From NCBI RefSeq assembly GCF_015160855.1, contig NZ_CP063373.1:1674001-1738000 (forward strand): a DNA stretch of 64,000 bases, given 5' to 3'. This stretch comes from Streptomyces ferrugineus. Its GTDB lineage: Bacteria; Actinomycetota; Actinomycetes; Streptomycetales; Streptomycetaceae. This document shows positions 2,823-19,742 of the stretch, piece by piece; within the stretch, counting starts at the first letter, position 1, and each line of letters begins with the position of its first letter. The notes under the pieces are model-generated. The model worked only from the letters and a program-made list of their open reading frames with translations, had not been told where the DNA came from and searched no databases. The position numbers and the translations under genes were made by a program.

Positions 2823-4364
2823 CTAGCCGCGCCGGATCGTGATCGTCGTCCACGCCCCCACGTGCACCCGGTCGCCGTCCTGCAGCGGCACCGGCACGAA
2901 GGGCTGGATCGGCTCCTCGGCGCCGTTCACCGTGGTGCCGTTCGTCGAGTTCTGGTCGACGACCGCCCAGGTGCCGTCCGGCTGCTGGACCAGGACCGCG
3001 TGCTGGTGCGAGACGCCCGGGTCCTCCGGCGGCACCGACAGGTCGATGTCGGGGGTGTCGCCGGTGGAGTGGCGGCGGCGGCCGATGGTGACCTGGTTGC
3101 CGGTGAGCGTGCGCTGCTGCTCGGGCGAGTACGCGGGCAGGTTCAGGCCCGCGGCCTCGGGGCCGGAGCGCTGCATCATCGCCATGAAGTAGTCGCGGTC
3201 CGGACCGATGGTCGCCATCCAGGTCGTCGGCTGCTGCTGGTAGCCGGGGCCGGGCGGGGGCGGGGCCTGGGTCGCGCCGGGCTGCGGGTAGCCGTAGCCG
3301 CCCTGGGCGGGAGCGCCGGGGCCCGACGAGGGCGGAGAGATCACCCAGTCGTCGTCACCGCCGCCGAAGGACGGGCCGCCGGGCTGCGGACGGTTCGGGT
3401 CCTGTCCGAATCCGGGCGGGGCCGGCGGGGCGGCGGGGCCCGGGCCGGGGCCGGTCGGCTGGAACGCCTGCGGAGCACCGCCGGTCGCGCCGGGACCGCC
3501 GGGCGGGGTGGGGCCGGGCGGCGGCGGAACCGGCCGCGAGGGGTCGCCGCCGAAGCCGGAGGGGCCGTTCATGCCCGGGCCGCCGGGGCCACCGGGTCCG
3601 CCCGGGCCGCCGGGGTTCGTGTTGCCCGGACCACCGGGACCCGCGCCGAAGCCGCCCGGGCCGCCCGGACCACCGGGGCCGCCTCCGGGACCACCGGGTC
3701 CGCCGGGACCGCCGAAGCCCGAACCGGGACCACCCATGCCACCGGGGCCGGGACCACCGGGTCCGCCAGGGCCGCCCTGAGGACCAGGACCATGACCAGG
3801 ACCGGGGCCACCGGGTGCGCCAGGGCCACCCTGAGGGCCGGGACCGCCCGGGCCACCCGGGCCGCCGGGACCCCCCTGCCCCTGCGGCTCCGCGCCGAAC
3901 GGCGGGATCGGTTCCGCCGGGCGGTTCACCTGGGACGGGCGCGAGCCCTGGTACTCGTACGAGTCACCGCCGCCGAACGACGGCGGAGGCCCCGACTGCT
4001 GCTGGAAGTGGGAGGGCAGGCCCGGGCCGCCGGGCGCCGGCTGGCGCGGGGCGGCGGGGGTGTACGACGTCGCGGTGTTGGTCAGGAAGTTCCACCGGCA
4101 CTCCTCGCAGAACGGCGCACCGCCCTCACGCGGCGTACGGCACTGCGGGCACAGCTCCGGCTCCGGCATGCCGGACATGGGCGGACGTCCGCCCTGCTGA
4201 CCGGCGTTCGGGCCACCGGACGGGCCGCCGGGCGGCGGGAAGCCATAGCCACCGCCGGGCGGGGGCGGCGGAGGGGGCGGAGGTACGGCACCGGCCATGC
4301 GGTGACCGCAGACCTCGCACCAGTCGTCGGAACCCGACTGGTGTCCGTTCGGGCAGGTCGGCAT
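2823..4364 (-). CDS. FHA-domain protein with double zinc ribbon and collagen-like linker
   Basis: 513 residues. Two zinc ribbons open the protein: Cys4/Cys16/Cys19 with His8, then Cys72/75/86/89. A low-complexity Pro/Gly region follows, including a collagen-like run of GGP/GPGG repeats at roughly residues 165-300. The C-terminal FHA domain (about 420-513) has the phosphothreonine-binding signature: IGRRR, then SHQHA, then NSTNGT. FHA domains read phosphothreonine, so this is the likely substrate or reader of the PknG-type kinase encoded four genes upstream, analogous to OdhI/GarA but far larger. The start is ATG 4364 with GAGGGGGAAG 8 bp upstream. It is last in the cluster, 38 bp after the VWA gene. 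Confidence 0.9.
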   Translation of the reverse strand: MPTCPNGHQSGSDDWCEVCGHRMAGAVPPPPPPPPPGGGYGFPPPGGPSGGPNAGQQGGRPPMSGMPEPELCPQCRTPREGGAPFCEECRWNFLTNTATSYTPAAPRQPAPGGPGLPSHFQQQSGPPPSFGGGDSYEYQGSRPSQVNRPAEPIPPFGAEPQGQGGPGGPGGPGGPGPQGGPGAPGGPGPGHGPGPQGGPGGPGGPGPGGMGGPGSGFGGPGGPGGPGGGPGGPGGPGGFGAGPGGPGNTNPGGPGGPGGPGGPGMNGPSGFGGDPSRPVPPPPGPTPPGGPGATGGAPQAFQPTGPGPGPAAPPAPPGFGQDPNRPQPGGPSFGGGDDDWVISPPSSGPGAPAQGGYGYPQPGATQAPPPPGPGYQQQPTTWMATIGPDRDYFMAMMQRSGPEAAGLNLPAYSPEQQRTLTGNQVTIGRRRHSTGDTPDIDLSVPPEDPGVSHQHAVLVQQPDGTWAVVDQNSTNGTTVNGAEEPIQPFVPVPLQDGDRVHVGAWTTITIRRG

Positions 4365-4402
4365 GTCGGCGCTTCCCCCTCTCAGGTCAGGGAACTTCTA
4401 GC

Positions 4403-5749
4403 TCACTTCTTTACACGAACAGTCTTTGTCGACCGTGTCTCGAGAGTCATCTCGTCGGCCTCCGCGACCTTCGTCTTCAGTCGCACAGTACCTGTCGTGG
4501 CATCGACCACGTCCACCACCTTCGCAAGTAGCTTCGCAGTATCCGCGTTCCCGGAGTCGTTCGCGAGCTGAACGGCGCGGCCCAGTTTGGCTGTTGCGCC
4601 ATCCATATCACCCGCTTTGCGAAGATCCAGCCCTTGTTGAATGGCTTGTGCCAGTTCGGCCTGGCCGGTGTAGTGGGCGACCTGAGGGTTGATCGACGTC
4701 GAGGCGACCATGTCGTCGGTCCATACGGCCCGTACGAGACCCTGCGCGCCCAAGTTCCCCGCGCTGCCGTCGGGTTGCGGAACGACCAGCGAGACCCGGG
4801 CGGCGAGCATCTCCTGGCCGAGGTTCGCGGCCGGGACCTCGACGCAAACGTGGTAGTCACGGGACTCGTCGCCCCAGGAGCCGGTGGGGTAGTCCCCGGC
4901 GCGCGGGCCGGCCTCGGTGCGGCGGTCGGTCAACTCCTCGACCGTCGGCGCGACCTGCTTGACGAACTTGATCGTGGTGCCGACCGGCGTCCACAGCCGC
5001 AGCGCGACGTCCGCGACCTCCTTGCCCATCGCCGTCTCCATCATCCGTGTGAAGTCGGCGGCGAGACCGGCCGGGTCCGCGACGATGTCGGCGCTGCCGA
5101 GCAGCGCGGAGGCGATCCCTGTGACTTCTTTCACTTCCCAGTCGGTGCCCACGCCGCGGGCGTCACAGGTGAACCGTCCGGCACAGGCGTCGAGCGCGGC
5201 CTTCAGGTCCTCGGGCGACTCGTGCTCGTTGCGGCCGTCCGTGAGCAGGATGCCGTGCCGGATGGCGACGTCGTCCGAGGACAGCAGCCGGTCGGCGAGG
5301 CGCAGCCAGGTGCCGATGGCCGTGCCGCCGCCCGCGCTCAGCCTGCGCAGCGCCTGCTTGGCCTGGTCACGGGTGGTGGCGTCGGCCACGGCGAGGTTGC
5401 CGCCCCCCGGGTAGACCTCCTTCGCCACGTGCGTGCCGCCGATCACCGCGAAGTGCACGCCGTCGCGCAGGGTGTCGATGGCGGCGGCCGTGGCGTCGCG
5501 GGCGTTGCGCATCTTGGTCGGCGGGTAGTCCATCGAGCCCGAGCAGTCGACCATGATCGCCACGGCCGCGGACGGGCTCTGCCCCGGCGAGTACAGGTGC
5601 GGCGCGGTGACCGCGCTGCCGATCGTGCCGCCGCCGGTCGAGGTGACCGTGACGATCGCGTTGACCTCGCGGCCGCCCTCGGGCAGGTACTCGTTCTGGT
5701 ACACGTCCACCGAGAACTGCGGCACGTTTGATTTCGAGAAATTGGCCAT
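4403..5749 (-). CDS. VWA-domain (MIDAS) protein of the signalling cluster
   Basis: 448 residues with no signal peptide. After an N-terminal beta region (about 1-60) comes a von Willebrand A domain with a complete MIDAS start, DCSGSMD at residues 68-74, later GGGTAIGTW and ILLTDGRNEHES. C-terminal beta segments follow, then a helical repeat-like region at about 345-400 (AELAQAIQQGLDLRKAGDMDGATAKLGRAVQLANDSG) that looks TPR-like. VWA proteins bind partners through a divalent metal. Beside a kinase, a PP2C phosphatase and an FHA protein, it is likely to act as a scaffold or effector; that role is inferred from context. The start is ATG 5749. It follows the PP2C gene after 96 bp that contain a hairpin at 5800-5821. 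Confidence 0.88.
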   Translation of the reverse strand: MANFSKSNVPQFSVDVYQNEYLPEGGREVNAIVTVTSTGGGTIGSAVTAPHLYSPGQSPSAAVAIMVDCSGSMDYPPTKMRNARDATAAAIDTLRDGVHFAVIGGTHVAKEVYPGGGNLAVADATTRDQAKQALRRLSAGGGTAIGTWLRLADRLLSSDDVAIRHGILLTDGRNEHESPEDLKAALDACAGRFTCDARGVGTDWEVKEVTGIASALLGSADIVADPAGLAADFTRMMETAMGKEVADVALRLWTPVGTTIKFVKQVAPTVEELTDRRTEAGPRAGDYPTGSWGDESRDYHVCVEVPAANLGQEMLAARVSLVVPQPDGSAGNLGAQGLVRAVWTDDMVASTSINPQVAHYTGQAELAQAIQQGLDLRKAGDMDGATAKLGRAVQLANDSGNADTAKLLAKVVDVVDATTGTVRLKTKVAEADEMTLETRSTKTVRVKK

Positions 5750-5799
5750 ACGTTCTCAAATCCCCCTAAAGAACCCCGCGGTGGGGCCATGGCTGCCGA

Positions 5800-5821
5800 C
5801 GGACCGGTCCCCTCCGGTCCG
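5800..5821 (-). terminator. Intercistronic hairpin between PP2C and VWA genes
   Basis: An 8-bp perfect stem (CGGACCGG / CCGGTCCG) with a 6-base loop lies between the PP2C stop and the VWA start. It has no T-run. It could attenuate transcription or protect mRNA ends, giving unequal expression of kinase/phosphatase versus VWA/FHA genes. Function inferred. Confidence 0.45.
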
Positions 5822-5845
5822 CTGAGGCCGTCCCCGCAGTAGGCC

Positions 5846-7492
5846 TCAGGCCGATCCTGCCCCCAACGGCGGCGCCGGGAACGGCAGGATCGCCACTGTT
5901 ACGTTGTCGTGGCCCCCGCCGTCGAGCGCGTGTCCGACCAGTACCCGGGCGCCGTGCAGGGGGCGCGCGGCGGCGTCGAGGGGCACGACGTCGGCCATGT
6001 CCTCGGCCGCCTCCGCGTAGTTCCACAGCCCGTCGGTGCACACCACCACCACACCCGGGCGGTCCGGCTTGAAGGAAGCGGTGTGCGGCTCCAGCTCGTA
6101 GGCGTCCGCGCCGAGCCAGCCCGTGATGGCGTGGGCGCGCTCGTCGGCGTACGCCTCGGCCTCGCTCATCAGGCCCGCGGCGACCATCTGCGCGGCCCAG
6201 GAGTCGTCCTCGGTGAGCCGGGCCGGGGGAGTGCCGCGGTCGACCGGGACCCAGTAGGCGCGGCTGTCGCCGACCCAGCCGACGACCAGCAGGCCGGCGG
6301 TGACCACGGCGCCGACGAAGGTGCAGGCCGGCGCGTTCTGGTGCGGGGCCTGCTCGCGGGCCGTGGCCGGTTCGCTCGCCAGCGCGTTGACCGCGTTCGA
6401 GGCGGCGATGATCGCGTCGTGCATGGCCTGCTGCGGGTGCGTGCCGCGCGGCAGGGCGGTCAGCAGCGACTCGCTCGCGGCCCGGGAGGCGGCCATCGAG
6501 GCGTCGTCGGGGCGGGTCGCCGAGGACACACCGTCGCAGACGATCGCGAGCACCGCCGGCCGGCCGTCGGGCAGCGTGGTGCCGCTCACGGCGAACGCGT
6601 CCTCGTTGCGGTGGTGGCGCAGACCGCGGTCGCTGACGGCGGCGACGGGGCCTGCGTCCTGCTCCATGTGGTCGCGCTCGCGCGGCTGGGCGTGCCCGCA
6701 GTTCTCGCAGTACCCGTCGTGGTCGACCCGGCCCGCCCGGCACGCCACGCACACCTTGGTGCCCTCGGGCGGGGTCGGCAGGTCGGTGGCGATACGCGGG
6801 TCGGGCGCCTGCAAGGCGTACTCCTCGGGCTGCGGCGGACGGTCGAACCGCACACCGGACGCCGGGGGGACCGGGGGGACCGGGGAGCCGGTCGGGGCCG
6901 GGGGGACGGCTGGGGGGTGCGGCGCCTGGGGGCCGACAGGGCCGACAGGGCTGCCGGGGCCCGCGTGGCCGCCGGGACTTGCGGGGCCGCCCGGACCTGC
7001 AGGGCCGGATGGGCTGGCGTGCCCGCCCGGACCTGCGGGGCCGCCCGGCGCCGGATAGCCGTGTGGTGCGTGGTGGTCCGGTGCCGGGAGGCCGGGGTTG
7101 ACGGGACCCGGCGTCATGCCCTGGCCGCTCGGCGGCACCTCGACCCCGCTCGCCGGCGGTGGCACCGGTGCGGAGGGCGGCGGGGACTGCGGGGGCGGGG
7201 GTGTGCCCGGGGGCACGGGGTGGCCGCCGGAGTGCGTGCCGTGGGCGTCCGCCGGCGGCTGCGAGGGCGCGGGCACGCCGGGGCCGTCCGGCGCGTGTGG
7301 GGTGGGCCACGCCATGCCGGGCGCGCCCGGGGCGGGGGGCGGCGCCGAGCCGTTCAGGGCGATGGTCGGGTGGTCGTCCGGCCGTACGGGCACGGCGGAC
7401 AGGTCGTATCCGCACGCACCGCAGAAACGGTCACCCGACTCGAGCGGCCATTCGCAGCTCGGGCAGGCGGACAGCTGGGGCATCTGCGACAT
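5846..7492 (-). CDS. PP2C-family Ser/Thr protein phosphatase with double zinc ribbon
   Basis: 548 residues. Zinc ribbon 1 uses Cys10/13/24/27; a Pro/Gly/Ala-rich linker spans about 35-240, partly collagen-like around 150-185; zinc ribbon 2 uses Cys248/251/262/265. The PP2C domain runs from about 283: SDRGLRHHRNEDAF (metal ligand region, Asp298), VCDGVSS (Asp320), CTDGLWNY and GHDNVTVAIL. All metal-binding aspartates are present, although DGVSS replaces the usual DGMGG. It should be a Mn/Mg-dependent phosphatase opposing the adjacent kinase. ATG 7492 is chosen; an in-frame TTG at 7495 directly abuts the kinase stop codon (TAG at 7496-7498), so translation is probably coupled. No membrane segment is seen. 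Confidence 0.92.
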   Translation of the reverse strand: MSQMPQLSACPSCEWPLESGDRFCGACGYDLSAVPVRPDDHPTIALNGSAPPPAPGAPGMAWPTPHAPDGPGVPAPSQPPADAHGTHSGGHPVPPGTPPPPQSPPPSAPVPPPASGVEVPPSGQGMTPGPVNPGLPAPDHHAPHGYPAPGGPAGPGGHASPSGPAGPGGPASPGGHAGPGSPVGPVGPQAPHPPAVPPAPTGSPVPPVPPASGVRFDRPPQPEEYALQAPDPRIATDLPTPPEGTKVCVACRAGRVDHDGYCENCGHAQPRERDHMEQDAGPVAAVSDRGLRHHRNEDAFAVSGTTLPDGRPAVLAIVCDGVSSATRPDDASMAASRAASESLLTALPRGTHPQQAMHDAIIAASNAVNALASEPATAREQAPHQNAPACTFVGAVVTAGLLVVGWVGDSRAYWVPVDRGTPPARLTEDDSWAAQMVAAGLMSEAEAYADERAHAITGWLGADAYELEPHTASFKPDRPGVVVVCTDGLWNYAEAAEDMADVVPLDAAARPLHGARVLVGHALDGGGHDNVTVAILPFPAPPLGAGSA

Positions 7493-7495
7493 CAA

Positions 7496-10033
7496 CTACA
7501 CCCACGTCCGGGGGCGGTAACGGTTGGCACGTTCCACCAGGTCGATCCTCTCCTCGCCGCCCCGTGCGAGCCGGGCCAGCACGCGGTACGAACGCTCCAG
7601 GCCGAAACGCAGTCCCCGCTCGTCCAGGCCGCTGCCGAGCAGCGTCCGTCCTCCGGCGGCGGGAGGGGCGGAACCCTGGCCCCCGGAGAGTATCCAGTCC
7701 AGCGCGCAGCCGAGGACTTCCGCCGACAACTGCTCCCGGCGCGCCGGATCCAGACCGTACGCCTCCAGCGCCTCGACCTGCCCCGCGGCGGCGGTCAGGT
7801 CGTCCAGGAACGGTACGTCGGCGGCGACCGCCGTACGGCCGCGCAGCCGGGCCCGGACGGCGGCGACGCGTGCGGCCGTGTAGTGGATGGAGCTCTCCGG
7901 AACCGACTCCAGGGTCCGTACGGCGCTGCGGCGGTCGCCGGTCGCGAGCTGGACGCGGGCCAGGCCGAAGGCGGCGCTGACATAGCTGGGGTCGGTGGAC
8001 CACACCAGGCGGTAGTACTCGGCGGCGTTGTCCAGCTGCCCCAGCACCTCCGCGCACAGGCCGAGGGCCAGCTTGGGCGCGGGCTCGCCGGGGAAGGCGT
8101 CGTAGATCGCGTCGAAGGCGAGCGCGGCGCCCTCGTGGTCGCCCGTGACCAGCGCGGCCACGCCGCGGTACCAGACCACCCGCCAGTCGTCGGGCCGCTC
8201 GTCCTCCAGCTCCAGCAACGCCTCGTGCGCGGTGCCGCTGTCGCCGTTCTCCAGCCAGGCCCGCACCTGCCTGAGCCGGGTCTCGGTCGACGGCGCGGGC
8301 GCGGCGGCCAGGGCGCCGAGCAGCTCGGCCGCCGCGGTGGTCATCAGTCCCGCGAGGAAACCGGCGTTGGGGTCGTCGGGGTCGACCCGGGGGACCGGCA
8401 GGGCGAGGGCGGCGGCGGGGGCGTCGACGCCCTTGACGATGCCGGGGGCGGTGGACGGGAGCGCGTTGGCGGCACCGCCGGCCTCCAGGGCGGGGGAGCC
8501 GGCCGCGGCGAGCTTCTTCCGGGAAGGCGCCACCCGCGCCCCCAGCCGCGAGACCTCGCCGTCCAGCTTCGGGAACAACTCCGTGTCCGTCACCCGCACT
8601 TCGGGCCCGAACAGCGTCGACAGCGACGGCCTGGCCCGCCCCGACTGCAGGGACACCACCTCCCGCAGCACGCCCGTGAGCTGCTCCGTCATCTCCTGGG
8701 CGGAGGCGAAGCGGCGGGCCGGGTCGGGGTCGGTGGCGCGGACCAGGAGGCGGTAGAACGACTCGTACTGGCGGAAGACCTCGATGTTGTCGGGGTCGGG
8801 CAGCGAGTCGACGTAGACGTTCGTGTAGCCCTGGAAGTCGAAGGTCAGTACGGCGAGCGTGCGCGCGACCGTGAACAGGTCGGACGCGACCGACGGGCCG
8901 ACGTCCGCCACCTCCGGCGCCTGGTAGCCCACCGTGCCGTAGATGGCCGACTCCTCGTCGTCCATCCTGCGCACCGCGCCCATGTCGATCAGCTTGAGCT
9001 GGTCCTCGGTCTGGATGGCGTTGTCGACCTTGAAGTCGCAGTAGAGGAGGTTGCGGCTGTGCAGGTGCCCCAGGGCCTCCAGGGCCTCGATGCCGTACGC
9101 GCACGCCTGCTCGACGGGCAGCGGGTCGCGCCGGCCGCTCTCCGTACGGCGTGAATTCGCGATCTCCTTCAGGGACTTGCCGCCGACGTACTCCATGACG
9201 ATGTAGCCGTCGAGGGAGCCGGTGCGCTGGTCGAGGTGCTCGACGAAGTTGTAGATCCGCACGATGTTGGCGTGCTCGATCTCGGCGAGGAAGCGCCGCT
9301 CGGAGATCGCCGCCGCCATCGCGTCCTGGTCGCCGGTGTCGAGCAGGCCCTTGAGCACCACCCAGCGGTCGGAGACCGCGCGGTCCACGGCGAGGTAGAT
9401 CCAGCCGAGCCCGCCGTGCGCCAGGCAGCCCACGACCTCGTACTGGCCGTGCACGATGTCGCCGGCCTTCAGCTTCGGGACGAACGAGTACGGGTGCCCG
9501 CACTTGGTGCAGAAGCCCTCGGTACGGCCCGGCCGGTCGCCGCGCGCACGGCCCACCGGCGCCCCGCAGTCCGAACGCGAGCAGAAACGCTTGCGCTCGG
9601 GAACCTCGGGGTTCTCCAGCACCATCGCGCGCGGGTCGGGCCGCGGTACGTCCGGCACCTGCACCAGACCGACACCGAGCCGGCCGCGGCCGCTGGAGCC
9701 CGCCGACGAGCCGGAGCTGCGCACCGACACCGAGCGGCCCGTGGAACGGCCCGACAGCGCGCGCGACAGCCGTCCCGACACCGAGCGCCGGGACTTCGAC
9801 GACTGCGACGACGTACGCGAACTGCCGCGGCTGCCGGAGCGGGAGCTGGTGCTGCCCGAGCCGCGCCCGCCCTTGCCGCCGCCCGTGACCCCGGTGGGCG
9901 GCGAGCCGACCATGCCGCTCGCCGAGACGACCGGGGCGAGCCCGCAGGTGTCGCAGTACAGCTCGCCACCACCCATGTCCTCGTACGCCCCGTCGCAGTC
10001 CGGCCGCTGGCAGGGCTGCTGTGCCTGACTCAT
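7496..10033 (-). CDS. pknG: PknG-type soluble Ser/Thr protein kinase with zinc ribbons and TPR tail
   Basis: 845 residues with PknG domain order: Cys motifs, kinase, TPR. Zinc-binding pairs are Cys8/13/27/30 and Cys151/156/175/178, the second just before the kinase domain like the PknG rubredoxin. Between them lies a Ser/Arg-rich tract (about 55-118). Kinase features are the glycine loop AHGGLGW (about 205-211), Lys228, catalytic Asp333 in YCDFKVDN, and Asp350 in DMG (replacing DFG), all PknG-like departures from canonical kinases. The C-terminal half has helical TPR-like repeats (LELEDERPDDWRVVWYRG, LDNAAEYYRLVW). There is no transmembrane segment. In Corynebacterium and Mycobacterium, PknG phosphorylates the FHA protein OdhI/GarA. 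ATG 10033 has GGGGGGAG 9 bp upstream. The symbol denotes family only. Confidence 0.9.
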   Translation of the reverse strand: MSQAQQPCQRPDCDGAYEDMGGGELYCDTCGLAPVVSASGMVGSPPTGVTGGGKGGRGSGSTSSRSGSRGSSRTSSQSSKSRRSVSGRLSRALSGRSTGRSVSVRSSGSSAGSSGRGRLGVGLVQVPDVPRPDPRAMVLENPEVPERKRFCSRSDCGAPVGRARGDRPGRTEGFCTKCGHPYSFVPKLKAGDIVHGQYEVVGCLAHGGLGWIYLAVDRAVSDRWVVLKGLLDTGDQDAMAAAISERRFLAEIEHANIVRIYNFVEHLDQRTGSLDGYIVMEYVGGKSLKEIANSRRTESGRRDPLPVEQACAYGIEALEALGHLHSRNLLYCDFKVDNAIQTEDQLKLIDMGAVRRMDDEESAIYGTVGYQAPEVADVGPSVASDLFTVARTLAVLTFDFQGYTNVYVDSLPDPDNIEVFRQYESFYRLLVRATDPDPARRFASAQEMTEQLTGVLREVVSLQSGRARPSLSTLFGPEVRVTDTELFPKLDGEVSRLGARVAPSRKKLAAAGSPALEAGGAANALPSTAPGIVKGVDAPAAALALPVPRVDPDDPNAGFLAGLMTTAAAELLGALAAAPAPSTETRLRQVRAWLENGDSGTAHEALLELEDERPDDWRVVWYRGVAALVTGDHEGAALAFDAIYDAFPGEPAPKLALGLCAEVLGQLDNAAEYYRLVWSTDPSYVSAAFGLARVQLATGDRRSAVRTLESVPESSIHYTAARVAAVRARLRGRTAVAADVPFLDDLTAAAGQVEALEAYGLDPARREQLSAEVLGCALDWILSGGQGSAPPAAGGRTLLGSGLDERGLRFGLERSYRVLARLARGGEERIDLVERANRYRPRTWV

Positions 10034-10058
10034 GACGACGACTCCCCCCTGTCCTGCC

Positions 10059-11396
10059 TCATGCTCGCGGCCCCCCGCGATCCTCCGGCCCGCGCGGCCC
10101 CGGCACCCGGCCGCCGCCGAGCAGGTCGGCGGCCGCCTGCTGGTAGCGCAGGACCGCCTGCTCGGCGACGCGCAGGTCGCAAGGAGCGCTCCACAGCATG
10201 CGGCGGGCCGCGTCGTAGCGCTCGATCAGGAACGGGTCCTCCGCGAAGCCGTGCCGCGCGACCTTCGCCTTGTACGCGTCGAGGCGGCCGCGCAGCTCCG
10301 CGCGGACCGCCAGGGGCGCGGTGACCGCGGTCAACGACTCGCGGGCGCGCAGCAGTTCGTCCTCCGCCTTCTGCTCCAGCGACTCCAGGAGCGGGGACAG
10401 GCGGTGCCACTGCGCGTGTCTGCGGTACTCGGCGGCCGTCGCCAACTGCTCCTGCAGCGCGGTCGGCGGGCCGCTGACGACCGGCACCTCCGTGGCGGCG
10501 ATCTTCGCCAGCACCTCGCCGCGCGCGGTGCGGGCCTCGGCGAGCGTGCGGTCCGCGCGCGAGAGCACGTCGCGCAGCTTGACCAGGCGCTGCTCGGCAT
10601 CCTGGCGGACCGTCAGCACCGCGTCGATCTCACGGCGTACGTCCTCCAGGGCGCGCGCCTCCCGGTCGTAGACCGTGGTGTCCGGCCGGCCGCCGCCCGG
10701 CGCCGAACTGCCCGGTGCGGGGATCCAGTACGCCAGCGGGTCGGAGACCACCTGCGCGCGCAGGTGGGTGAGGGTGCGGGTGATGCGCTCCAGGTCGTCG
10801 CCGGCGGGGTGCTCGCCGGGGCGTACGCCGACGGAGTGCGCGAGCCGACGGGTGCGCTGGAGCTCCGCGGCGAGTAAATCGATCCGCGCGGGCAGCGCCG
10901 ACCAGACGGCGTCGGCGGCGACGACCATGTCGAGCGAGGTCGCGTACAGCTCGTTCATCCGGTCGACCAGGGTGGCCAGCGAGAACTGCTCGCTGAGCCT
11001 GCTCGAAGCGCCTTGCAGCGTCGGCGCGTTGGCGGTCGCCGTCGCGGTCGTCGAGCCCGCGACGGTCACACAGTCGCCGCGCAGCAGCTCCGTCAGCTCC
11101 ACCAGGTCGTCCCGGCTGGACCAGCGGCGACGGGCGCGGATGTCGCGGGCGGAGCGCAACGCGTCCGTGTACGCGTCGAAGTACGCCCACAGCAGCGTGA
11201 TCGACGCCTCCGCGGCGATCCAGCGCTCCTTGGTGACTCCCGTGAGCTCGGCGCCCTCGAGAAGTCTGCGGCCCGCGTGGTCCTGCAGCGCGAGGAGCGA
11301 GGTCTCGATCGCCTCGTGCTCCGCGCCGAGCCGCGCCAGCGCACGGTCCACCTCGTCCCGGTCCATCACCGGCCCGGCGGGGTCCGTGACGCCCAT
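10059..11396 (-). CDS. Uncharacterised helical protein between GlnH-like and PknG-like genes
   Basis: 445 residues, family not recognised. No signal peptide or membrane segment is evident. The composition (E, R, A, L rich) and heptad-like runs point to long helices and coiled coils, clearest at about residues 245-300 (DREARALEDVRREIDAVLTVRQDAEQR, then LRDVLSRADRTLAEARTARGEV) and at 325-385. The N-terminal half has a conserved-looking RWIAAEASITLLWAYFDAYTDAL segment. The C-terminus ends in a short Gly/Pro/Arg tail. Spacing is 25 bp to the kinase start, and ATG 11396 has GAGAGGTG 6 bp upstream. Its position between the sensor genes and the kinase suggests an adaptor coupling them; this is inference. 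Confidence 0.8.
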   Translation of the reverse strand: MGVTDPAGPVMDRDEVDRALARLGAEHEAIETSLLALQDHAGRRLLEGAELTGVTKERWIAAEASITLLWAYFDAYTDALRSARDIRARRRWSSRDDLVELTELLRGDCVTVAGSTTATATANAPTLQGASSRLSEQFSLATLVDRMNELYATSLDMVVAADAVWSALPARIDLLAAELQRTRRLAHSVGVRPGEHPAGDDLERITRTLTHLRAQVVSDPLAYWIPAPGSSAPGGGRPDTTVYDREARALEDVRREIDAVLTVRQDAEQRLVKLRDVLSRADRTLAEARTARGEVLAKIAATEVPVVSGPPTALQEQLATAAEYRRHAQWHRLSPLLESLEQKAEDELLRARESLTAVTAPLAVRAELRGRLDAYKAKVARHGFAEDPFLIERYDAARRMLWSAPCDLRVAEQAVLRYQQAAADLLGGGRVPGPRGPEDRGGPRA

Positions 11397-11451
11397 CGAT
11401 CACCTCTCGCTGCGTCGTCGTTTCGTCAGTCGTCTGTCGGTTGATGGTGGG

Positions 11452-12537
11452 TCACTTGTACCGGGCTTCGGGAGGGGTCGCCGACGCCGACTTCTTGTCG
11501 CCCTGATCCATGGTCGGGTGCAGCCACTTCTCGTACGACGTCTTCCAGCCGCCGTCCTCGATGTAGTTCTCCAGGGTCCGGTTGACCTGGCGTACCAGAT
11601 CGTCGGAGCCCAGCTTCATCGCCACGCCGTAGTACTCGTCGGTGAACAGGCCGCCCTTCAGTTCGACGGTGGGGTCCTGCGCGGCCTGACTGGCGGCGAG
11701 GGCACCGTCGGTGACGATCGCGTCGACCTCGCCGAGCTGCAACTTCACCAGGCAGTCGAGCTGGTTGGGGACGGTGGCGGCGATGTCGGTGGAGGCGGGC
11801 AGGTCGCCGTTCTTCATGCCCGCCTGAAGGCTGTCGTAGGCCGTGGAGCCCTCCGCCGAGCAGACCTTGTTCTTCGCCAGGCTCTTGTCGAACCCGGTGA
11901 TCTTCGAGGTCTTGGGGGCCAGGACCTGCTGGCCGGTGACGAAGTACGGGGCGGAGAAGGCCACTTGCCCGATGCGGTCGCAGTTGATCGTCATGGTGCG
12001 GACCACCATGTCGACCTCGCCCTTCTGGATCGCCTCGATACGGCGGCTGGTCGGGATCGCCTTGAACCGCACGGCGTCGCGGTCGCCGAGGATGTCCTCG
12101 GCGATCCGGTGGACCAGGTCGATGTCGAAGCCCTCCAGCGCGCCGGAGGGGTTGTTCGGGTCGAGGTAGCCCCAGCGGTAGCTGTTGGTGTCGATGCCGA
12201 CGATCAGGCGCCGGTCCTTGCGGGCCTTGATGGCGTCGAGGGTCGCGGTGTCGCCGTTGCCGCCGGCCGGGGAAAGGCTCTTGTCCTGCGGGTTCTCGCA
12301 GTCCTCGGCCTTGGCCTGGAGGCCGTGGGTGACGCGGTGGCCGGCGGAGTCCTTGTCGCCGCCGGGGGCACCGGTGGTGCCGGATCGCTGGGAGAGCGGG
12401 AGCAGCAGGGCGAAGGCCAGGGCCATCGCGCACAGGACGGCCATCGCGCCCACGCCGCCCCAGCCGCGCAGGCCGGCCCGCAGCCGGTGCCAGGGGGTGC
12501 CGGTGCGGTGTGTCTCGTGTGCGTGGTGCGCGTTCAT
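11452..12537 (-). CDS. Membrane-anchored GlnH-like amino-acid-binding protein (SBP family 3)
   Basis: 361 residues. A single N-terminal membrane anchor (about 27-48, GGVGAMAVLCAMALAFALLLP) has no lipobox. After a linker, a family 3 solute-binding domain (about 105-345) shows RRLIVGIDTNSYRWGY, GFDIDLVHRIAEDILG, RRIEAIQKGEVDMVVRTMTIN and VAFSAPYF. No ABC permease or ATPase is nearby, so this is a sensor rather than an uptake subunit, as for GlnH in the mycobacterial/corynebacterial glnX-glnH-pknG locus, where GlnH reports Asp/Glu to PknG through GlnX. ATG 12537 follows a GGGGG-type Shine-Dalgarno 14 bp after the GlnX stop. The C-terminal tail is short and charged. Confidence 0.88.
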   Translation of the reverse strand: MNAHHAHETHRTGTPWHRLRAGLRGWGGVGAMAVLCAMALAFALLLPLSQRSGTTGAPGGDKDSAGHRVTHGLQAKAEDCENPQDKSLSPAGGNGDTATLDAIKARKDRRLIVGIDTNSYRWGYLDPNNPSGALEGFDIDLVHRIAEDILGDRDAVRFKAIPTSRRIEAIQKGEVDMVVRTMTINCDRIGQVAFSAPYFVTGQQVLAPKTSKITGFDKSLAKNKVCSAEGSTAYDSLQAGMKNGDLPASTDIAATVPNQLDCLVKLQLGEVDAIVTDGALAASQAAQDPTVELKGGLFTDEYYGVAMKLGSDDLVRQVNRTLENYIEDGGWKTSYEKWLHPTMDQGDKKSASATPPEARYK

Positions 12538-12551
12538 CGTCGTGCCCCCTC

Positions 12552-14003
12552 TCACCTGTACTCCGACAGCCTGCGGCCGATGCCGAGGACCGCGCCGGCC
12601 GCGCCCAGGACCGCGAGGACCGCGGCGCCGGTCGGGAGGCCGGTCAGCGAGTCCCGGCCGTCGCCCGCGGCCTGCCTGAACTCGGTCTGCTCGTGCTTCA
12701 GTGCCGTGGCCAGGGCCTGGTCGACGTTGTCGAAGCACACGCTCGTCGGCTCCTTCGCGGTGCCGATCACACGGTCGCGGGCGGCCTGGTAGTTGCCCGA
12801 GTCGTTGTCGTCGCGGGCGATGCCGTGGCGGTCCTTCCAGATCTTCATGAAGCCGTTCGCGTCCTGCACCGGCTTCCTTCCCGCCGAGTCGTCGGCGAGG
12901 CCCGCGGCCCGGGTGAGCGCCTTGCCGAGCGCCTCGATCTCCCGGTCGTAGCCCCACTCGTACGCGTCCACGACCGTGTCGTCGTCGAGTGTCCTGGTGT
13001 CCGCGCCGCGGCGGACCAGGGCGAGGTTCTCGTCGCTGCGGGCGGTGAGGGAGGCGATACGGGCCTCGTGCAGCACGTTCAGGGAGCGGACGCCGTGGTC
13101 GTAGGAGTCGTTCAGGCCCACGCGGGCGACGGTGTGCCCCACGGCGAGCCACAGCAGGACGACCGTGGCGGCTGCCGTGGCGGTGACCAGGCCGTGGTTG
13201 AGGACCCTGTTCGTGCGCTGGTAGTTGCGGCGCTGGGCCCAGGCGAGGCAGGCCAGGGCGGCGATGCCGAGGCCCGCGGCCGCCCAGGGGAACGACTTCG
13301 CGTCGGCGTAGTCGTCGCGCAGACGCTGGTTCTCGGTCTCGTGGAGCTTCTGGGCGGCCGGCAGCATCTTCTGCTGCATCATCTCGTTCGCGGCGCGCAG
13401 ATAGGCGCCGCCGACGGGGTAGCCCTGGCGGTTGTTGGCCCGCGCCGTCTCGACCAGGCCGTTGTACTCGGGGAGCAGCCTGCTGAGTTCGGCGATGGTG
13501 TGCGCCGAGGTCGAGCCCGGTTCGGAGTTGGCGGCGGCGGTGACGAGTTTGGCGGCCGCCGTGCGGATGTCCGTCTCGTAGCCCTCGCGCATGGCGGGCT
13601 TCTCCTGCAGACCGGCGAGGTAACCGCTGGCCGCGGCGGTGTTGGCGTCCGCGAGGGAGCGGTAGATGTCGGCCGCGTCCGAGGTGAGGGGCTGGCTGCG
13701 GTTGAGGACGTCGTCGGCCGCGCTCGCGCGCTCGGTCATCTGCCAGGCGGCGATGGCGCCGAACGCGATGACGAGGAGGGCGAGGAGGGCGCCGATGATG
13801 CGCAGGCGGCCGGGTTCGGTGGTGGCGGCCGCGCGGAGCTGGTCGAAGCCCTCGGCGAAGGCGGTGCGGCGGGGCTCGGTGGGGGCGGGATCGGGTGCGG
13901 CCGGGCGGTGGGGCTGTGGGGGGACGGACGGCATGGTGGGGGTGGAGTGCACCGGGTCGTGGCCCGGTGGCGGTGCGGTGCTGCTCTTCGGCGTCTGCGT
14001 CAC
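12552..14003 (-). CDS. GlnX-like four-TM membrane signalling protein
   Basis: 483 residues. A Pro-rich cytoplasmic N-terminus (1-60) is followed by TM1 (about 69-88), a helical extracytoplasmic domain (about 90-240), TM2 (about 244-262), TM3 (about 273-295), a second extracytoplasmic helical domain (about 300-450) and TM4 (about 455-475). Both outer domains look like four-helix sensor bundles. This is the topology of GlnX, the protein linking GlnH to PknG in Corynebacterium and Mycobacterium. It is first in the seven-gene minus-strand cluster. GTG 14003 has GGGGGAGG 7 bp upstream. The assignment rests on topology and synteny more than on sequence motifs. Confidence 0.82.
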   Translation of the reverse strand: MTQTPKSSTAPPPGHDPVHSTPTMPSVPPQPHRPAAPDPAPTEPRRTAFAEGFDQLRAAATTEPGRLRIIGALLALLVIAFGAIAAWQMTERASAADDVLNRSQPLTSDAADIYRSLADANTAAASGYLAGLQEKPAMREGYETDIRTAAAKLVTAAANSEPGSTSAHTIAELSRLLPEYNGLVETARANNRQGYPVGGAYLRAANEMMQQKMLPAAQKLHETENQRLRDDYADAKSFPWAAAGLGIAALACLAWAQRRNYQRTNRVLNHGLVTATAAATVVLLWLAVGHTVARVGLNDSYDHGVRSLNVLHEARIASLTARSDENLALVRRGADTRTLDDDTVVDAYEWGYDREIEALGKALTRAAGLADDSAGRKPVQDANGFMKIWKDRHGIARDDNDSGNYQAARDRVIGTAKEPTSVCFDNVDQALATALKHEQTEFRQAAGDGRDSLTGLPTGAAVLAVLGAAGAVLGIGRRLSEYR

Positions 14004-14198: not shown

Positions 14199-15164
14199 TC
14201 AGCCTTCGAAGTGTGCACGCAGCCGGGCATGTGCCTGCGGCGGTGCCCCCACCGCGTCCAGGCCCAGCAAGGCCGCCCCCAGCACCGGACTGGCCGTGAC
14301 CACCCCGGGTACCGCCTTGGGCGCGCGGGAGATGAGCAGGTCGCGGATGCCGTCGGTGAGTTGGGCGTGGCGTGCGGCCAGTACGCCACCGCCCAGCAGG
14401 ACCGGTGTCTCCTCCTCCAGCAGGTCGAGGCGGCTCAGTGCGACCGTCGCCATCGTCACCACCTCGTCGGCCAGCCGGTCCACGATCGCGCGGGCGACCG
14501 GGTCGCCGGCCTCGGCCGTGGCGAAGAGGACCGGTGTCAGTTCGTGGCGGCGGATCTCCTCGACGCGCCCCAGGTGCAGGGCCTCGATCAGGGCGTACAT
14601 GGTGGGCAGTCCGAAGTGCGCGGGGAGGGTGCGCGCCAGGGCCGTCGGCTCGCCCCGGCCGTCCTCCGCCCGCGCCGCGTGCCACAGCGCCTCCTCCGCC
14701 AGCCCCCAACCGCCGCCCCAGTCACCGGAGATACGGCCCAGCGCCGGAAAGCGGGCCGTACGGCCGTCGGGGCGCATGCCCACGCAGTTGATGCCGGCGC
14801 CGCAGACGACGGCCACGCCCCGGGGCTCGGTCACGCCCGCCCGCAGGATCGCGAAGGTGTCGTTGCGGACCTCGACCGTCGTCCCCCACGCGCGTGCGTG
14901 CAGCGCGGCGGCCAGCGTCTCCTCCTCCACCGGGAAGTCGGCGTTCGCCAGGCACGCGGAGACGTGGTCGGCGGATGTCACGCGTGCGGCCGTGAAGGCT
15001 CGGTCCACGGCCCCGGCGAGGGTGTCCACGGCCCGCTCCACGCCCACCGCGGGCGGGCGGAACCCTCCTGCGCGGGCCGTGGCCAGGACGGTCCCGTCGC
15101 CGGCCAGCACCGCCACGTCGGTCTTGCTGTTGCCCGCGTCGATGGCGAGGACACGTGCGGTCAT
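14199..15164 (-). CDS. csnK: BadF/BadG/BcrA/BcrD-family amino-sugar kinase (CsnK-like)
   Basis: 321 residues of the ASKHA-fold BadF/BadG ATPase family that includes GlcNAc/GlcN kinases. The first phosphate motif, VLAIDAGNSKTDVAVL, is at about residues 5-20. Others are NDTFAILRAG, GVAVVCGAGINCVGM and the second phosphate/adenosine region GDWGGGWGLAEEALW, then VLLGGGVLAARH. It probably phosphorylates glucosamine or a related monomer released by the GH4 enzyme. The start is ATG 15164, overlapping the GH4 stop by 4 bp (ATGA). It is last in an operon whose gene order equals csnR-csnE-csnF-csnG-csnH-csnK, known for chitosan-oligosaccharide use in S. coelicolor/S. lividans (recalled, not searched). 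Confidence 0.85.
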   Translation of the reverse strand: MTARVLAIDAGNSKTDVAVLAGDGTVLATARAGGFRPPAVGVERAVDTLAGAVDRAFTAARVTSADHVSACLANADFPVEEETLAAALHARAWGTTVEVRNDTFAILRAGVTEPRGVAVVCGAGINCVGMRPDGRTARFPALGRISGDWGGGWGLAEEALWHAARAEDGRGEPTALARTLPAHFGLPTMYALIEALHLGRVEEIRRHELTPVLFATAEAGDPVARAIVDRLADEVVTMATVALSRLDLLEEETPVLLGGGVLAARHAQLTDGIRDLLISRAPKAVPGVVTASPVLGAALLGLDAVGAPPQAHARLRAHFEG

Positions 15165-16426
15165 GCCCACGCGAGGTGCTCCCGGTTGTGTGCGATCAGC
15201 TGGTCGGTGAGCCGCTCGGCGTACTCGTACTGGCCGACGAGGGGGTGGGAGAGCAGGGCCTTGAAGACGCGGGTGCGGCCGCCGTGCAGGGCCGCGTCCA
15301 GGGCCAGGTCCTCGTAGGCCGTCACCTGGGCCATCAGACCCGCGTACAGGGGGTCCGGGCTCGGGACCGGCAGCGGGGCCGGGCCCTGTCCGCCGACCGC
15401 CGCCTGCACCTCGATCACCGCGTCGTCGGGGAGGAACGGCAGGGTGCCCCTGTTGTACGTGTTCACCACCTGGTACGTGCTGCCCGCGCCGTTCAGCAGC
15501 GCCGCCGCCAGGTCCACCGCCGCCTCCGAGTAGTACGCGCCGCCGCGCCTGGAGAGGAGTTCGGGCTTCTCGTCCAGGGCCGGGTCGGCGTACAGGGTGA
15601 GCAGCTTTCTTTCCATTTCGGCCACCTCCGCGGCGCGGGACGGCCTGGTCCGCAGTTCGCGCACCACCTCGTCGTGCGCGTAGTAGTAGCGCAGGTAGTA
15701 CGACGGGACGACGCCCAGGCGGTCCAGGAGCACCCGCGGCAGGTGCAGGTCCGCGGCGATCGTGTCGCCGTGGTCGGCCAGGAGCTTCGGCAGGACGTCC
15801 TCGCCCTCGGGGCCGCCGAGGCGTACCCCGGTCTCCCAGGTGAGGTGGTTGAGGCCCACGTGGTCCAGGTGGACCTCGGCGGGGGCGACGCCGAGCAGCG
15901 TCGCGAACTTGCGCTGGAAGCCGATCGCCACGTTGCACAGGCCGACCGCCTTGTGGCCCTCCTGGAGCAGGGCCCGGGTCACGATGCCGACCGGGTTGGT
16001 GAAGTCGATGACCCAGGCGGTGGGGTTGGCGCGGCGGACGCGGTCGGCGATGCCGAGGACGACCGGGACCGTGCGCAGGGCCTTCGCCAGGCCGCCCGCG
16101 CCCGTCGTCTCCTGGCCCACGCAGCCGCATTCCAGGGGCCACGTCTCGTCCTGCTCGCGGGCCGCCTGGCCGCCCACGCGCAGTTGCAGCAGGACCGCGT
16201 CGGCGCCGTCCACGGCCGCGTCCAGGTCGGTGGTCGTGGTGATCCGGCCGTTGTGGGCCTGGCGGGTGAAGATACGGCGGGCCAGGCCGCCGACCAGTTC
16301 CAGGCGGTCCGCCGCCGGGTCCATGAGGACCAGTTCCTCGACGGGGAGGGTGTCCCGGAGGCGGGCGAAGCCGTCGATGAGTTCGGGGGTGTAGGTCGAG
16401 CCGCCGCCGACCACGGTGAGTTTCAT
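15161..16426 (-). CDS. csnH: GH4 glycoside hydrolase, 6-phospho-beta-glucosidase type (CsnH-like)
   Basis: 421 residues of the NAD- and Mn-dependent GH4 family. The Rossmann start KLTVVGGGSTYTPELIDGF is at residues 2-20; GCVGQETTGAGG lies near 105-116; metal-binding CN is in LCNVAIG (about 168), and a second metal-ligand region is GLNHLTW. GH4 enzymes cleave by an oxidation-elimination route rather than acid-base hydrolysis. In this operon the substrate is probably a glucosamine disaccharide or its phosphate, although no PTS component is present, so an unphosphorylated substrate is plausible. The start is ATG 16426, with 7 bp to the csnG stop. Its stop overlaps csnK. Confidence 0.9.
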   Translation of the reverse strand: MKLTVVGGGSTYTPELIDGFARLRDTLPVEELVLMDPAADRLELVGGLARRIFTRQAHNGRITTTTDLDAAVDGADAVLLQLRVGGQAAREQDETWPLECGCVGQETTGAGGLAKALRTVPVVLGIADRVRRANPTAWVIDFTNPVGIVTRALLQEGHKAVGLCNVAIGFQRKFATLLGVAPAEVHLDHVGLNHLTWETGVRLGGPEGEDVLPKLLADHGDTIAADLHLPRVLLDRLGVVPSYYLRYYYAHDEVVRELRTRPSRAAEVAEMERKLLTLYADPALDEKPELLSRRGGAYYSEAAVDLAAALLNGAGSTYQVVNTYNRGTLPFLPDDAVIEVQAAVGGQGPAPLPVPSPDPLYAGLMAQVTAYEDLALDAALHGGRTRVFKALLSHPLVGQYEYAERLTDQLIAHNREHLAWA

Positions 16427-16433
16427 GTGTGGT

Positions 16434-17324
16434 TCAACCCTTTACTCCGGTGAGCGTGACGCCCTCTACGAACGCCTTCTGGGCGAAGAAGAACACGAGG
16501 ATGACGGGGGCCATGACCAGAACGGTCGCGGCCATGGTGAGGTTCCAGTCGGTGTGGTGGGCGCCCTTGAACGACTCCAGTCCGTAGGAGAGCGTCCAGG
16601 CGCCCGGGTTCTCGGACGCGTAGATCTGAGGGCCGAAGTAGTCGTTCCAGGCGTAGAAGAACTGGAAGAGGGCCACCGCCGCGACACCCGGCTTGGCCAT
16701 GGGCAGGACCACGCGCACAAGGGTGCGCAGTTCCCCGCAGCCGTCCACCTTCGCCGCGTCCAGGTACTCGTTGGGGATGGTGGTCAGGAACTGGCGCAGC
16801 AGGAAGATCGAGAACGCGTCCCCGAACGCCATCGGGATGATCAGGGGCCACAGGGACCCCGACAGGTCCAGCTGCTTCGCCCAGAACAGGTACATCGGGA
16901 TGATGACCACCTGGGGCGGCAGCATCATCATCGAGATGACCAGCATCAGGGCCACATTGCGGCCGCGGAAGCGGAACTTCGCGAGCGCGTAGGCCACCGG
17001 GACGGAGGACACGACGGTGAGGACCGTGCCCAGACCGGCGTAGATCAATGTGTTCTTCCACCAGGTCAGGAAGCCCGGGGTGTCGAGGACCTCGGTGTAG
17101 TTGCCCCATTCCCAGGTGTCCGGGACCAGGTCGCGGGTGAGTGCCTGCTGGTCGCTCATCAGCGAGGTCAGGACGACGAACACGAAGGGCAGGGTGAAGA
17201 AGAGCGCGGCCGCGACGCCGAGGGAGTGGACCGCTATCCATTCCAGGAGCGCTCTGCGTCGGGCCGTGCGCTCGGCGGGGGCCCCGGTGTCCAACTGCAC
17301 GGGCTTGTCCAGCACTTGGGTCAT
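16434..17324 (-). CDS. csnG: Carbohydrate ABC transporter permease, MalG type (CsnG-like)
   Basis: 296 residues with six predicted membrane helices. The cytoplasmic EAA loop reads EYLDAAKVDGCGELRTLVRV followed by LPMAKPG, in the usual place before the fifth helix; the N-terminus is cytoplasmic and Arg-rich. It belongs to the CUT1 (oligosaccharide) MalG branch. No ATPase gene is in the operon; in Streptomyces such importers are commonly energised by the shared MsiK ATPase encoded elsewhere (established for other CUT1 systems, inferred here). ATG 17324 is 2 bp after the csnF stop. Confidence 0.92.
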   Translation of the reverse strand: MTQVLDKPVQLDTGAPAERTARRRALLEWIAVHSLGVAAALFFTLPFVFVVLTSLMSDQQALTRDLVPDTWEWGNYTEVLDTPGFLTWWKNTLIYAGLGTVLTVVSSVPVAYALAKFRFRGRNVALMLVISMMMLPPQVVIIPMYLFWAKQLDLSGSLWPLIIPMAFGDAFSIFLLRQFLTTIPNEYLDAAKVDGCGELRTLVRVVLPMAKPGVAAVALFQFFYAWNDYFGPQIYASENPGAWTLSYGLESFKGAHHTDWNLTMAATVLVMAPVILVFFFAQKAFVEGVTLTGVKG

Positions 17325-17326
17325 GG

Positions 17327-18268
17327 TCAGTCACCTGCCTGGATCAGTCCGCCCCGGCGCCGCATCAGCAGCGCGGTGAACGCCATGGCGAGAGCGAACA
17401 GTACGAGTGCGACCACACAGGCCGAGCCGTAGTCGAAGCGCTGGAAGCCGAGGTTGTAGACGAGCTGGGGGAGCGTCAGGGTCGACTTGTCGGGGTAGCC
17501 CGGCTCGAACTGCTGGCCGGAGCCGCCGATGATGCCGGAGGCGACCTTTCCGGCCACCAGCGGCTGTGTGTAGTACTGCATCGTCTGGATCACGCCCGTG
17601 ACCACGGCGAACATCACGATCGGAGAGATGTTCGGCAGCGTGACGTACCGGAACCGCTGCAAGGCCGAGGTGCCGTCCAGCTCCGCCGCCTCGTACTGCT
17701 CCTTCGGCACGTCGAGCAGCGCCGCCATGAAGATGACCATGAGGTCGCCCACGCCCCACAGCGCCAGCGCGGTGAGGGCCGGCTTGGACCAGGTGGGGTC
17801 CGTGAACCAGCCGGGCGTCGGCAGCCCCAGGTCGCCGAGGAGGGAGTTGACCGGGCCGGTGCCGGGGTTGAGCAGGAAGACGAAGGCCAGGGTCGCGGCC
17901 ACCGGCGGGGCGAGGTAGGGGAGGTAGAAGAGGGTGCGGAAGACGCCCGTGCCGGTCTTGATCTTGGTGATGAGCAGGCCGATGCCGAGCCCGAAGACGA
18001 CCCGGCAGGTCACCATCACCAGTACCAGCCAGAGCGTGTTGCGCAGCGCCGGCCAGAACAGCGGGTAGTCGTTGAAGACGTAGGCCCAGTTGCCCAGGCC
18101 GCGGAACACCGGTGTGCCGAAGCCGTCGTACTTCATCAGGGAGAAGTACACGGTGGACACCAGCGGATAGGCGAAGAAGACGCCGAACCCGATGAGCCAC
18201 GGTGACAGGAAGGCCGCCGTTCGAAGCGCCGACCTGCGGCGCTTCGCGCGGAGCGGGTGCGAGGACAT
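17327..18268 (-). CDS. csnF: Carbohydrate ABC transporter permease, MalF type (CsnF-like)
   Basis: 313 residues with six membrane helices, the first at about 18-38 (AAFLSPWLIGFGVFFAYPL). The EAA loop is EQYEAAELDGTSALQRFRYV followed by TLPNISP. It pairs with the following permease to form the membrane channel of a CUT1 sugar importer fed by the binding protein upstream. The start is ATG 18268, 7 bp after the csnE stop, with no strong Shine-Dalgarno, so translation is probably coupled. Confidence 0.92.
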   Translation of the reverse strand: MSSHPLRAKRRRSALRTAAFLSPWLIGFGVFFAYPLVSTVYFSLMKYDGFGTPVFRGLGNWAYVFNDYPLFWPALRNTLWLVLVMVTCRVVFGLGIGLLITKIKTGTGVFRTLFYLPYLAPPVAATLAFVFLLNPGTGPVNSLLGDLGLPTPGWFTDPTWSKPALTALALWGVGDLMVIFMAALLDVPKEQYEAAELDGTSALQRFRYVTLPNISPIVMFAVVTGVIQTMQYYTQPLVAGKVASGIIGGSGQQFEPGYPDKSTLTLPQLVYNLGFQRFDYGSACVVALVLFALAMAFTALLMRRRGGLIQAGD

Positions 18269-18275
18269 CGGGGCG

Positions 18276-19637: not shown

Positions 19638-19742
19638 GGCGAGATCTCCCAAGGGCGGGACAGGGGTGGGTGAGGGAAGGGCGGGGGGTGAGTCAGAGGG
19701 CGGGGCTACGGGGGTGGGCTACGGGGGCTACGGGGCGGGCGG

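Follow-up and report, generated by a model that had tools for sequence, protein, structure and literature searches.

The PknG cluster of Streptomyces as a candidate nutrient-sensing phosphoswitch with a VWA-FHA half related to an archaeal switch

PknG has been studied for Mycobacterium tuberculosis virulence and for glutamate production, settings in which one output, OdhI/GarA, dominates. What, then, does this kinase control where its gene stands beside genes for a phosphatase, a VWA protein and an FHA protein? We address this question for a cluster in a window (the whole stretch of DNA analysed) of 64,000 bases on the 9.96-Mb chromosome of Streptomyces ferrugineus (G000:C1:1674001-1738000). 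The cluster is real, widely conserved and operon-like. Its sensory half is known; the VWA-FHA half is, by fold and profile, a bacterial relative of an archaeal FHA-VWA switch. We consider it probable that the whole is a nutrient-sensing phosphoswitch, in which PknG phosphorylates the tail of the VWA protein, the PP2C phosphatase reverses the modification and the FHA protein reads it; gene identity, co-conservation, the fold and profile match to ArnA/ArnB and the conservation of the tail form the basis for this proposal.

A conserved seven-gene cluster around PknG

Seven genes lie on the minus strand at 2823-14003, in the order GlnX, GlnH, helical protein, PknG, PP2C, VWA and FHA, and are separated in that order by 14, 55, 25, 3, 96 and 38 bases. 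A first, sequence-only reading of this DNA had proposed seven same-strand genes here, and the identities of all but the helical protein were confirmed with Pfam and NCBIfam models judged against the family cut-offs; the true frames of GlnH and PP2C differ from the longest listed open reading frames. The features are as follows.

12552..14003, minus strand: GlnX-family transmembrane transducer, 483 residues, GTG start (NF058618 transduce_GlnX, 495 bits)
11452..12537, minus strand: GlnH-like amino-acid-binding protein, 361 residues (SBP_bac_3, E 4e-27)
10059..11396, minus strand: all-helical coiled-coil protein, 445 residues (structure model and Streptomyces loci)
7496..10033, minus strand: PknG, 845 residues (PF16918, E 5e-87; PF16919, E 2e-30; PF00069, E 3e-24)
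5846..7492, minus strand: PP2C phosphatase, 548 residues (PF13672, E 2e-13)
4403..5749, minus strand: VWA protein, 448 residues (VWA and VWA_3_C matches)
4406..4456, minus strand: C-terminal tail of the VWA protein, DEMTLETRSTKTVRVKK, proposed phosphorylation site ([DE]TxST conservation)
2823..4364, minus strand: zinc-ribbon FHA protein, 513 residues (PF00498, E 1e-16)
2856..3092, minus strand: FHA domain with the phosphothreonine-binding residues IGRRR, VSHQHA and STNG (domain match and sequence)

The kinase carries an N-terminal Cys-pair motif with a Ser-rich segment, followed by rubredoxin, kinase and TPR domains; its best structure match is 2pzi (E 1e-165), and the catalytic residues are kept (VVLKG, YCDFKVDN, IDMG). 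In the PP2C protein, N-terminal zinc ribbons and a Pro/Gly linker precede a phosphatase domain whose motifs CDG, GDSR, TDG and GHDN are intact in sequence.

Conservation was assessed at two depths. The Streptomyces set comprised the best 80 of 535 confirmed PknG matches, all named Streptomyces, which, as the nearest matches, are therefore close relatives. GlnH, the helical protein and PknG were found in all 80 loci, GlnX and PP2C in 79 each, VWA in 75 and FHA in 74; all genes found were on one strand and in the same order, and each absence fell at a contig end. The wider survey covered 246 genomes of the class, with matches accepted at E up to 1e-20. PknG_TPR was found in 76 of these genomes, the VWA profile in 49 and both in 48 (Fisher p 6e-30, a nominal value because the genomes are related). 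Within the genus, 21 of 22 surveyed genomes have both, and the 22nd, G334, which is also the lone genome with a VWA match and no accepted PknG_TPR match, holds a broken copy of the cluster (L252). In this Streptomyces the cluster is decaying: PknG, VWA, GlnH and GlnX are in pieces, and the FHA, PP2C and helical genes are open.

The sequence-only reading had named a lack of co-conservation in neighbourhood analysis as a finding that would refute it. The cluster passes this test, although some loci are incomplete, and it is not peculiar to Streptomyces, as the genes proved to be co-conserved far beyond that genus: in 45 of the 48 genomes with both proteins, the VWA gene follows a PknG_TPR match on the same strand at a downstream distance of 61-3098 bases, and in the remaining three it is on another contig (two genomes) or is a distant remnant (G272). 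Outside the family f3, 48 of 57 PknG genomes have VWA; within f3, which we take to be Mycobacteriaceae because of its high PknG_TPR scores and three-gene loci, none of 19 does. We opened 59 of the 98 PknG_TPR places, spread over families, plus L250, L251 and the OdhI locus of the genome itself. Of the families opened, f3 is the only one in which every locus inspected (L208-L211, four loci from the 19 genomes) had the three-gene form, with GlnX, GlnH and PknG alone of the seven families being found; outside f3, PknG with only the sensor pair occurred in one f68 genome (L166) and in f69 second copies. The GlnX-GlnH-PknG arrangement is published for mycobacteria and C. glutamicum, and the available portion of the same paper describes the sensor, signalling and effector proteins as conserved in Streptomyces (PMC6069109). 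The sequence-only reading described this trio as extended by further genes; the joining stands, and the direction of change may be the reverse.

These data also bear on the possibility that GlnX-GlnH-PknG acts on OdhI/GarA only and that PP2C-VWA-FHA forms a separate cassette, adjacent by chance. The trio stands alone in the four opened f3 loci, and some f69 genomes have PP2C-VWA-FHA without an adjacent match to the PknG profile (L244-L247, L253). Against such independence speak the position of VWA downstream of PknG in nearly all genomes with both, gaps of just 3-96 bases and the f68 loci (L154-L167), of which 12 of 14 have a weak GlnX- or GlnH-like match on the downstream side of the kinase block and not upstream of it: the sensor pair is elsewhere, yet PknG stays with PP2C, VWA and FHA. 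We regard full independence as quite improbable. The strong divergence of these downstream f68 matches is what an exchangeable sensor might show.

The VWA-FHA half and its archaeal relatives

The VWA protein consists of a VWA domain inserted in a beta-sandwich, C-terminal helices and a Thr-rich tail, and its metal site, DCSGS, is intact. The motif [DE]TxST occurs within the last 15 residues of all 75 Streptomyces VWA sequences, and only one match to it was found across all sequences of the other six cluster families. In the structure model, the final helix stops at residue 439, and mean confidence in the terminal block is down to 58; the tail is therefore probably free. It resembles the ArnB phosphopeptides RMELIETTRR and ISESIETTRR, and also the GarA/OdhI peptide SDEVTVETTSVFRADFL and the sequence SETTSTIS of the OdhI protein encoded in the same genome.

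The FHA protein has two zinc ribbons, a long Gly/Pro linker, then a conserved pre-FHA motif and the FHA domain itself, whose phosphothreonine-binding residues (GR, SxxH, NG) are intact. Its family profiles match ArnA (5a8i and 8s05_C) from the zinc ribbon through the FHA domain, and the VWA protein shares with ArnB the VWA domain in a beta-sandwich and the C-terminal helical domain. As with ArnA-ArnB, the archaellum-regulating complex of Sulfolobus, a zinc-ribbon-FHA gene adjoins the gene for a protein that combines VWA, beta-sandwich and helical parts and bears Thr motifs in the C-terminal region, and both systems also include a phosphatase, a nutrient input and a kinase that has a TPR or TPR-like region. 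Unlike the Arn system, which uses ArnC and PP2A, the cluster is bacterial and combines PknG and a membrane amino-acid sensor with PP2C; unlike ArnB, its VWA protein has one short tail rather than several ETT helices and a C-terminus that matches another sequence family. The sequence-only reading contained neither the ArnA/ArnB relationship nor the VWA tail, nor the identity of the seventh, helical gene. VWA_3_C, the C-terminal family of the VWA protein, was not found in 14 control genomes.

4FX5, a VWA protein of Catenulispora acidiphila with a solved structure, belongs to the same family as the cluster VWA protein over its whole length, including a tail that reads STKTVR. It has been used as a fold comparison for ArnE/vWA2 (PMC6509490), and neither the available text of that paper nor that of PMC12852372 gives a function or an FHA partner for it. 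Our proposal offers a candidate function for the family of this structure.

The sequence-only reading had taken the FHA protein as the local counterpart of OdhI/GarA and its 513 residues as distinctive. Much of that length is Gly/Pro linker; relatives of the same architecture range from about 240 to 513 residues and differ widely in linker length. The OdhI family model (cut-off 200) gives the cluster protein 23 bits, whereas its best match in the genome, at C1:3479449-3479781, scores 188 bits, just under the cut-off, and carries SETTSTIS; ETT[ST] was found in none of 59 cluster FHA sequences. Equivalence to OdhI/GarA is not supported, given the low score, the missing motif and the separate OdhI locus. 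In the orthologue frame at G000:C1:3479449 (L149, L212), a zinc-ribbon-like Cys motif precedes SETTS.

A related possibility is that the FHA protein is itself the substrate and effector of PknG, as OdhI/GarA is, being phosphorylated near its zinc ribbon (LTNTATSYT) after recruitment by the autophosphorylated N-terminus of PknG, with the VWA protein serving as a scaffold. PknG does recruit FHA substrates through its phosphorylated N-terminus, according to the available portion of PMC8546545, and Streptomyces FHA proteins conserve a Thr-rich stretch that follows the second ribbon. FHA proteins from the other families compared do not retain NTATSYT, and the OdhI score and the lack of ETT[ST] given above argue in the same direction; we judge this alternative unlikely.

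The proposed phosphoswitch and the evidence for and against it

In the phosphoswitch that we favor, an amino acid would be bound outside the cell by GlnH, and GlnX would carry this information through the membrane to the PknG TPR domain, as orthology with the systems proposed for mycobacteria and corynebacteria suggests. PknG would then act through the classical OdhI/GarA protein, whose gene lies elsewhere, and also locally through the VWA protein, whose Thr-rich C-terminal tail PknG would phosphorylate and PP2C would dephosphorylate. The zinc-ribbon FHA protein might hold the VWA protein loosely through its ribbons until the FHA domain locks onto the phosphorylated tail, a step modelled on archaeal ArnA/ArnB under ArnC and PP2A, and, once assembled, the VWA-FHA complex would act as effector. 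The sequence-only reading had described a complete outside-to-inside phospho-relay. The inspected motifs of the kinase, phosphatase, VWA and FHA proteins are intact. A relay from sensor through kinase and phosphatase to reader is the most economical reading and is well supported, and we infer every one of its phosphorylation, binding and regulatory steps, as well as its output.

Loci that lack PP2C also show losses in the VWA tail and the FHA domain. Of the 47 VWA loci not included in the 80 (nine are first copies from Streptomyces), 40 possess PP2C; 39 of these match LD/E[TAS]xS[TV]xT, and the 40th is the broken L252, whose end fragment matches. None of the seven loci without PP2C has the full tail motif. 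The FHA arginine is kept in 39 of 39 FHA proteins with PP2C and lost in the two FHA proteins without it (L184, L188), beside which the kinases still look active by their residues. Loci with VWA matches below 100 bits (for example, L251) were omitted from this tabulation of tails and FHA residues.

Several observations weigh against the proposed phosphoswitch. On a tree of VWA proteins (which includes L251 and omits the broken L252 and the short L253), the PP2C label requires two changes, with long branches among the rows lacking PP2C; the co-loss therefore represents few events, not seven. Moreover, the second copies L213 and L250 of Streptomyces, which lack PP2C, retain a shorter STKT. The likeness of the tail motif was spotted post hoc. 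The PknG-linked copies of f69 mostly read LDAxSTxT, with Ala for the Thr after the acidic residue (L182 has LDT), even though the kinase there seems active from its sequence, so that this Thr cannot be the universal site; in three f68 loci, which read LDTGSVRT, Val replaces the next Thr. The f68 genomes G258 (a 24-bit fragment), G302, G370, G378 and G396 have no full VWA beside PknG, and PP2C and FHA are still present in three of the VWA-deficient loci (L155, L160, L164). The archaeal comparison also has its limits: the phosphatase is PP2C rather than PP2A, the FHA core alone scores slightly higher with GarA, OdhI and the plain FHA domain 1uht than with ArnA, and the VWA C-terminus matches Pfam VWA_3_C in 12 of 13 members and an ArnB C-terminal Pfam family in none of the 13. 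In the available portion of PMC12852372, the three-domain ArnB blueprint is placed mostly outside multi-phosphorylation, and the Catenulispora vWA is named among the structural orthologues of that blueprint.

With respect to known bacterial systems, the cluster shares with the GlnH-GlnX-PknG-OdhI/GarA systems of Corynebacterium and Mycobacterium the gene order of the homologues and an OdhI/GarA orthologue with ETTS elsewhere in the genome, and differs from them in four additional genes, those for the 445-residue helical protein, PP2C, VWA and the zinc-ribbon FHA protein. The threonine-phosphorylation pathway of type VI secretion comprises the kinase PpkA, the phosphatase PppA and the reader Fha and is tied to secretion genes. 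PpkA has a C-terminal VWA domain, as described in the available text of PMC1262709. That pathway thus shares a kinase, a phosphatase, an FHA reader and a VWA domain with the cluster; there, the VWA domain is fused to the kinase, whereas here the two are separate genes. Among open-licence papers, we found none with both ArnB and PknG; the sole paper with PknG and vWA treats them separately in its available portion, and the text available disclosed no account of PP2C, VWA and FHA genes clustered with PknG.

Our results suggest a second PknG output, so far unstudied. The cluster predicts a second, local PknG substrate, a likely phosphosite region, a phosphatase and a reader; it would link amino-acid sensing in a bacterium to a complex of known archaeal structure, and it may provide a nutrient input to Streptomyces physiology. 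The ETTS motif of OdhI/GarA resembles the VWA tail. We speculate, very tentatively, that the oldest job of PknG in actinomycetes was to drive an Arn-like VWA-FHA switch, a nutrient-signalling module shared by archaea and bacteria, that OdhI/GarA is a second branch and that the best-studied PknG lineage has lost the first.

Sensor proteins, variant loci and neighboring genes

GlnX scores well above the NF058618 cut-off of 250 bits and, with 196 bits, below the cut-off of 780 for the narrower NF041460. The best match of GlnH in the Protein Data Bank is 6h1u (E 4e-44), which is GlnH of M. tuberculosis (PMC6069109). The available text of that paper lists Arg147, Thr162 and Trp232 as contacts to Asp/Glu and Ser164, Arg169 and Asp250 as backbone contacts. 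In our alignment, Arg147, Thr162, Arg169 and Asp250 are kept, Ser164 is replaced by Thr and Trp232 by Gln, the last being kept in at least 98% of 81 Streptomyces sequences. From these residues, the ligand is likely an amino acid, and we are unsure of a specificity for Asp/Glu. In a further difference from the corynebacterial and mycobacterial systems, GlnH of this cluster has no lipobox, a pattern found within the first 60 residues in one of 81 Streptomyces sequences; a hydrophobic stretch occupies the N-terminal region instead.

In the 73 Streptomyces rows common to the five alignments, VWA proteins are on average 91% identical in pairwise comparison, helical proteins 88%, PknG 86%, GlnX 72% and GlnH 69%. 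GlnX and GlnH (11452-14003) diverge rapidly and in concert (r 0.89), in contrast to the genes for the cytoplasmic proteins. Their low identity and poor tracking of VWA (r 0.29 for GlnX and 0.27 for GlnH) indicate a variable sensor half and a constant cytoplasmic half. The helical protein matched no Pfam or NCBIfam family above the cut-off; its model (pLDDT 87.5, a per-residue confidence measure) is nearly all helix, with a weak likeness to the cytoplasmic domain of EzrA, and the protein was not recognised in the opened f62, f77, f91 and f3 loci.

Certain loci depart from the standard form. The f69 cassettes without a kinase recognised by the PknG profile (L244-L247, the second loci of G230, G414, G343 and G362, and L253) have an intact tail motif and FHA arginine. 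In L248 and L249, also of f69, the same cassette, with tail motif and FHA arginine kept, stands beside a PknG-like frame that reads DLAPGN, without the Lys after the catalytic Asp, and IDLQ, without the Gly of DxG. In the Streptomyces second copies L207, L213 and L250, a kinase with a PknG-TPR-like region adjoins a VWA protein with a C-terminal zinc ribbon, which in L213 and L250 is preceded by STKT; PP2C and FHA were not recognised by the profiles in these three loci.

A trio of adjacent genes for a kinase, a PP2C and a stand-alone vWA protein, often with a zinc ribbon on the kinase, has been described beside GAP1-N2 GTPases in actinobacteria in the available portion of PMC7159879, and the cluster could accordingly belong to a conflict or envelope-stress system of that type. 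Here, the kinase is PknG with GlnX and GlnH, an FHA reader is added and no GTPase or GAP1 genes were recognised: a Pfam scan of 11 flanking frames, several of which are not real genes, gave no GTPase, and GAP1 may lack a Pfam model. The matched neighbors are sugar-use genes and a PCMT-like methyltransferase gene, and we consider this explanation very improbable. Upstream on the same strand, at 14199-20954, an apparent sugar-use operon encodes a BadF-type ATPase, a family 4 glycosidase, two ABC permeases, a solute-binding protein and a ROK regulator; the methyltransferase gene, at 1776-2801, is convergent with the FHA gene.

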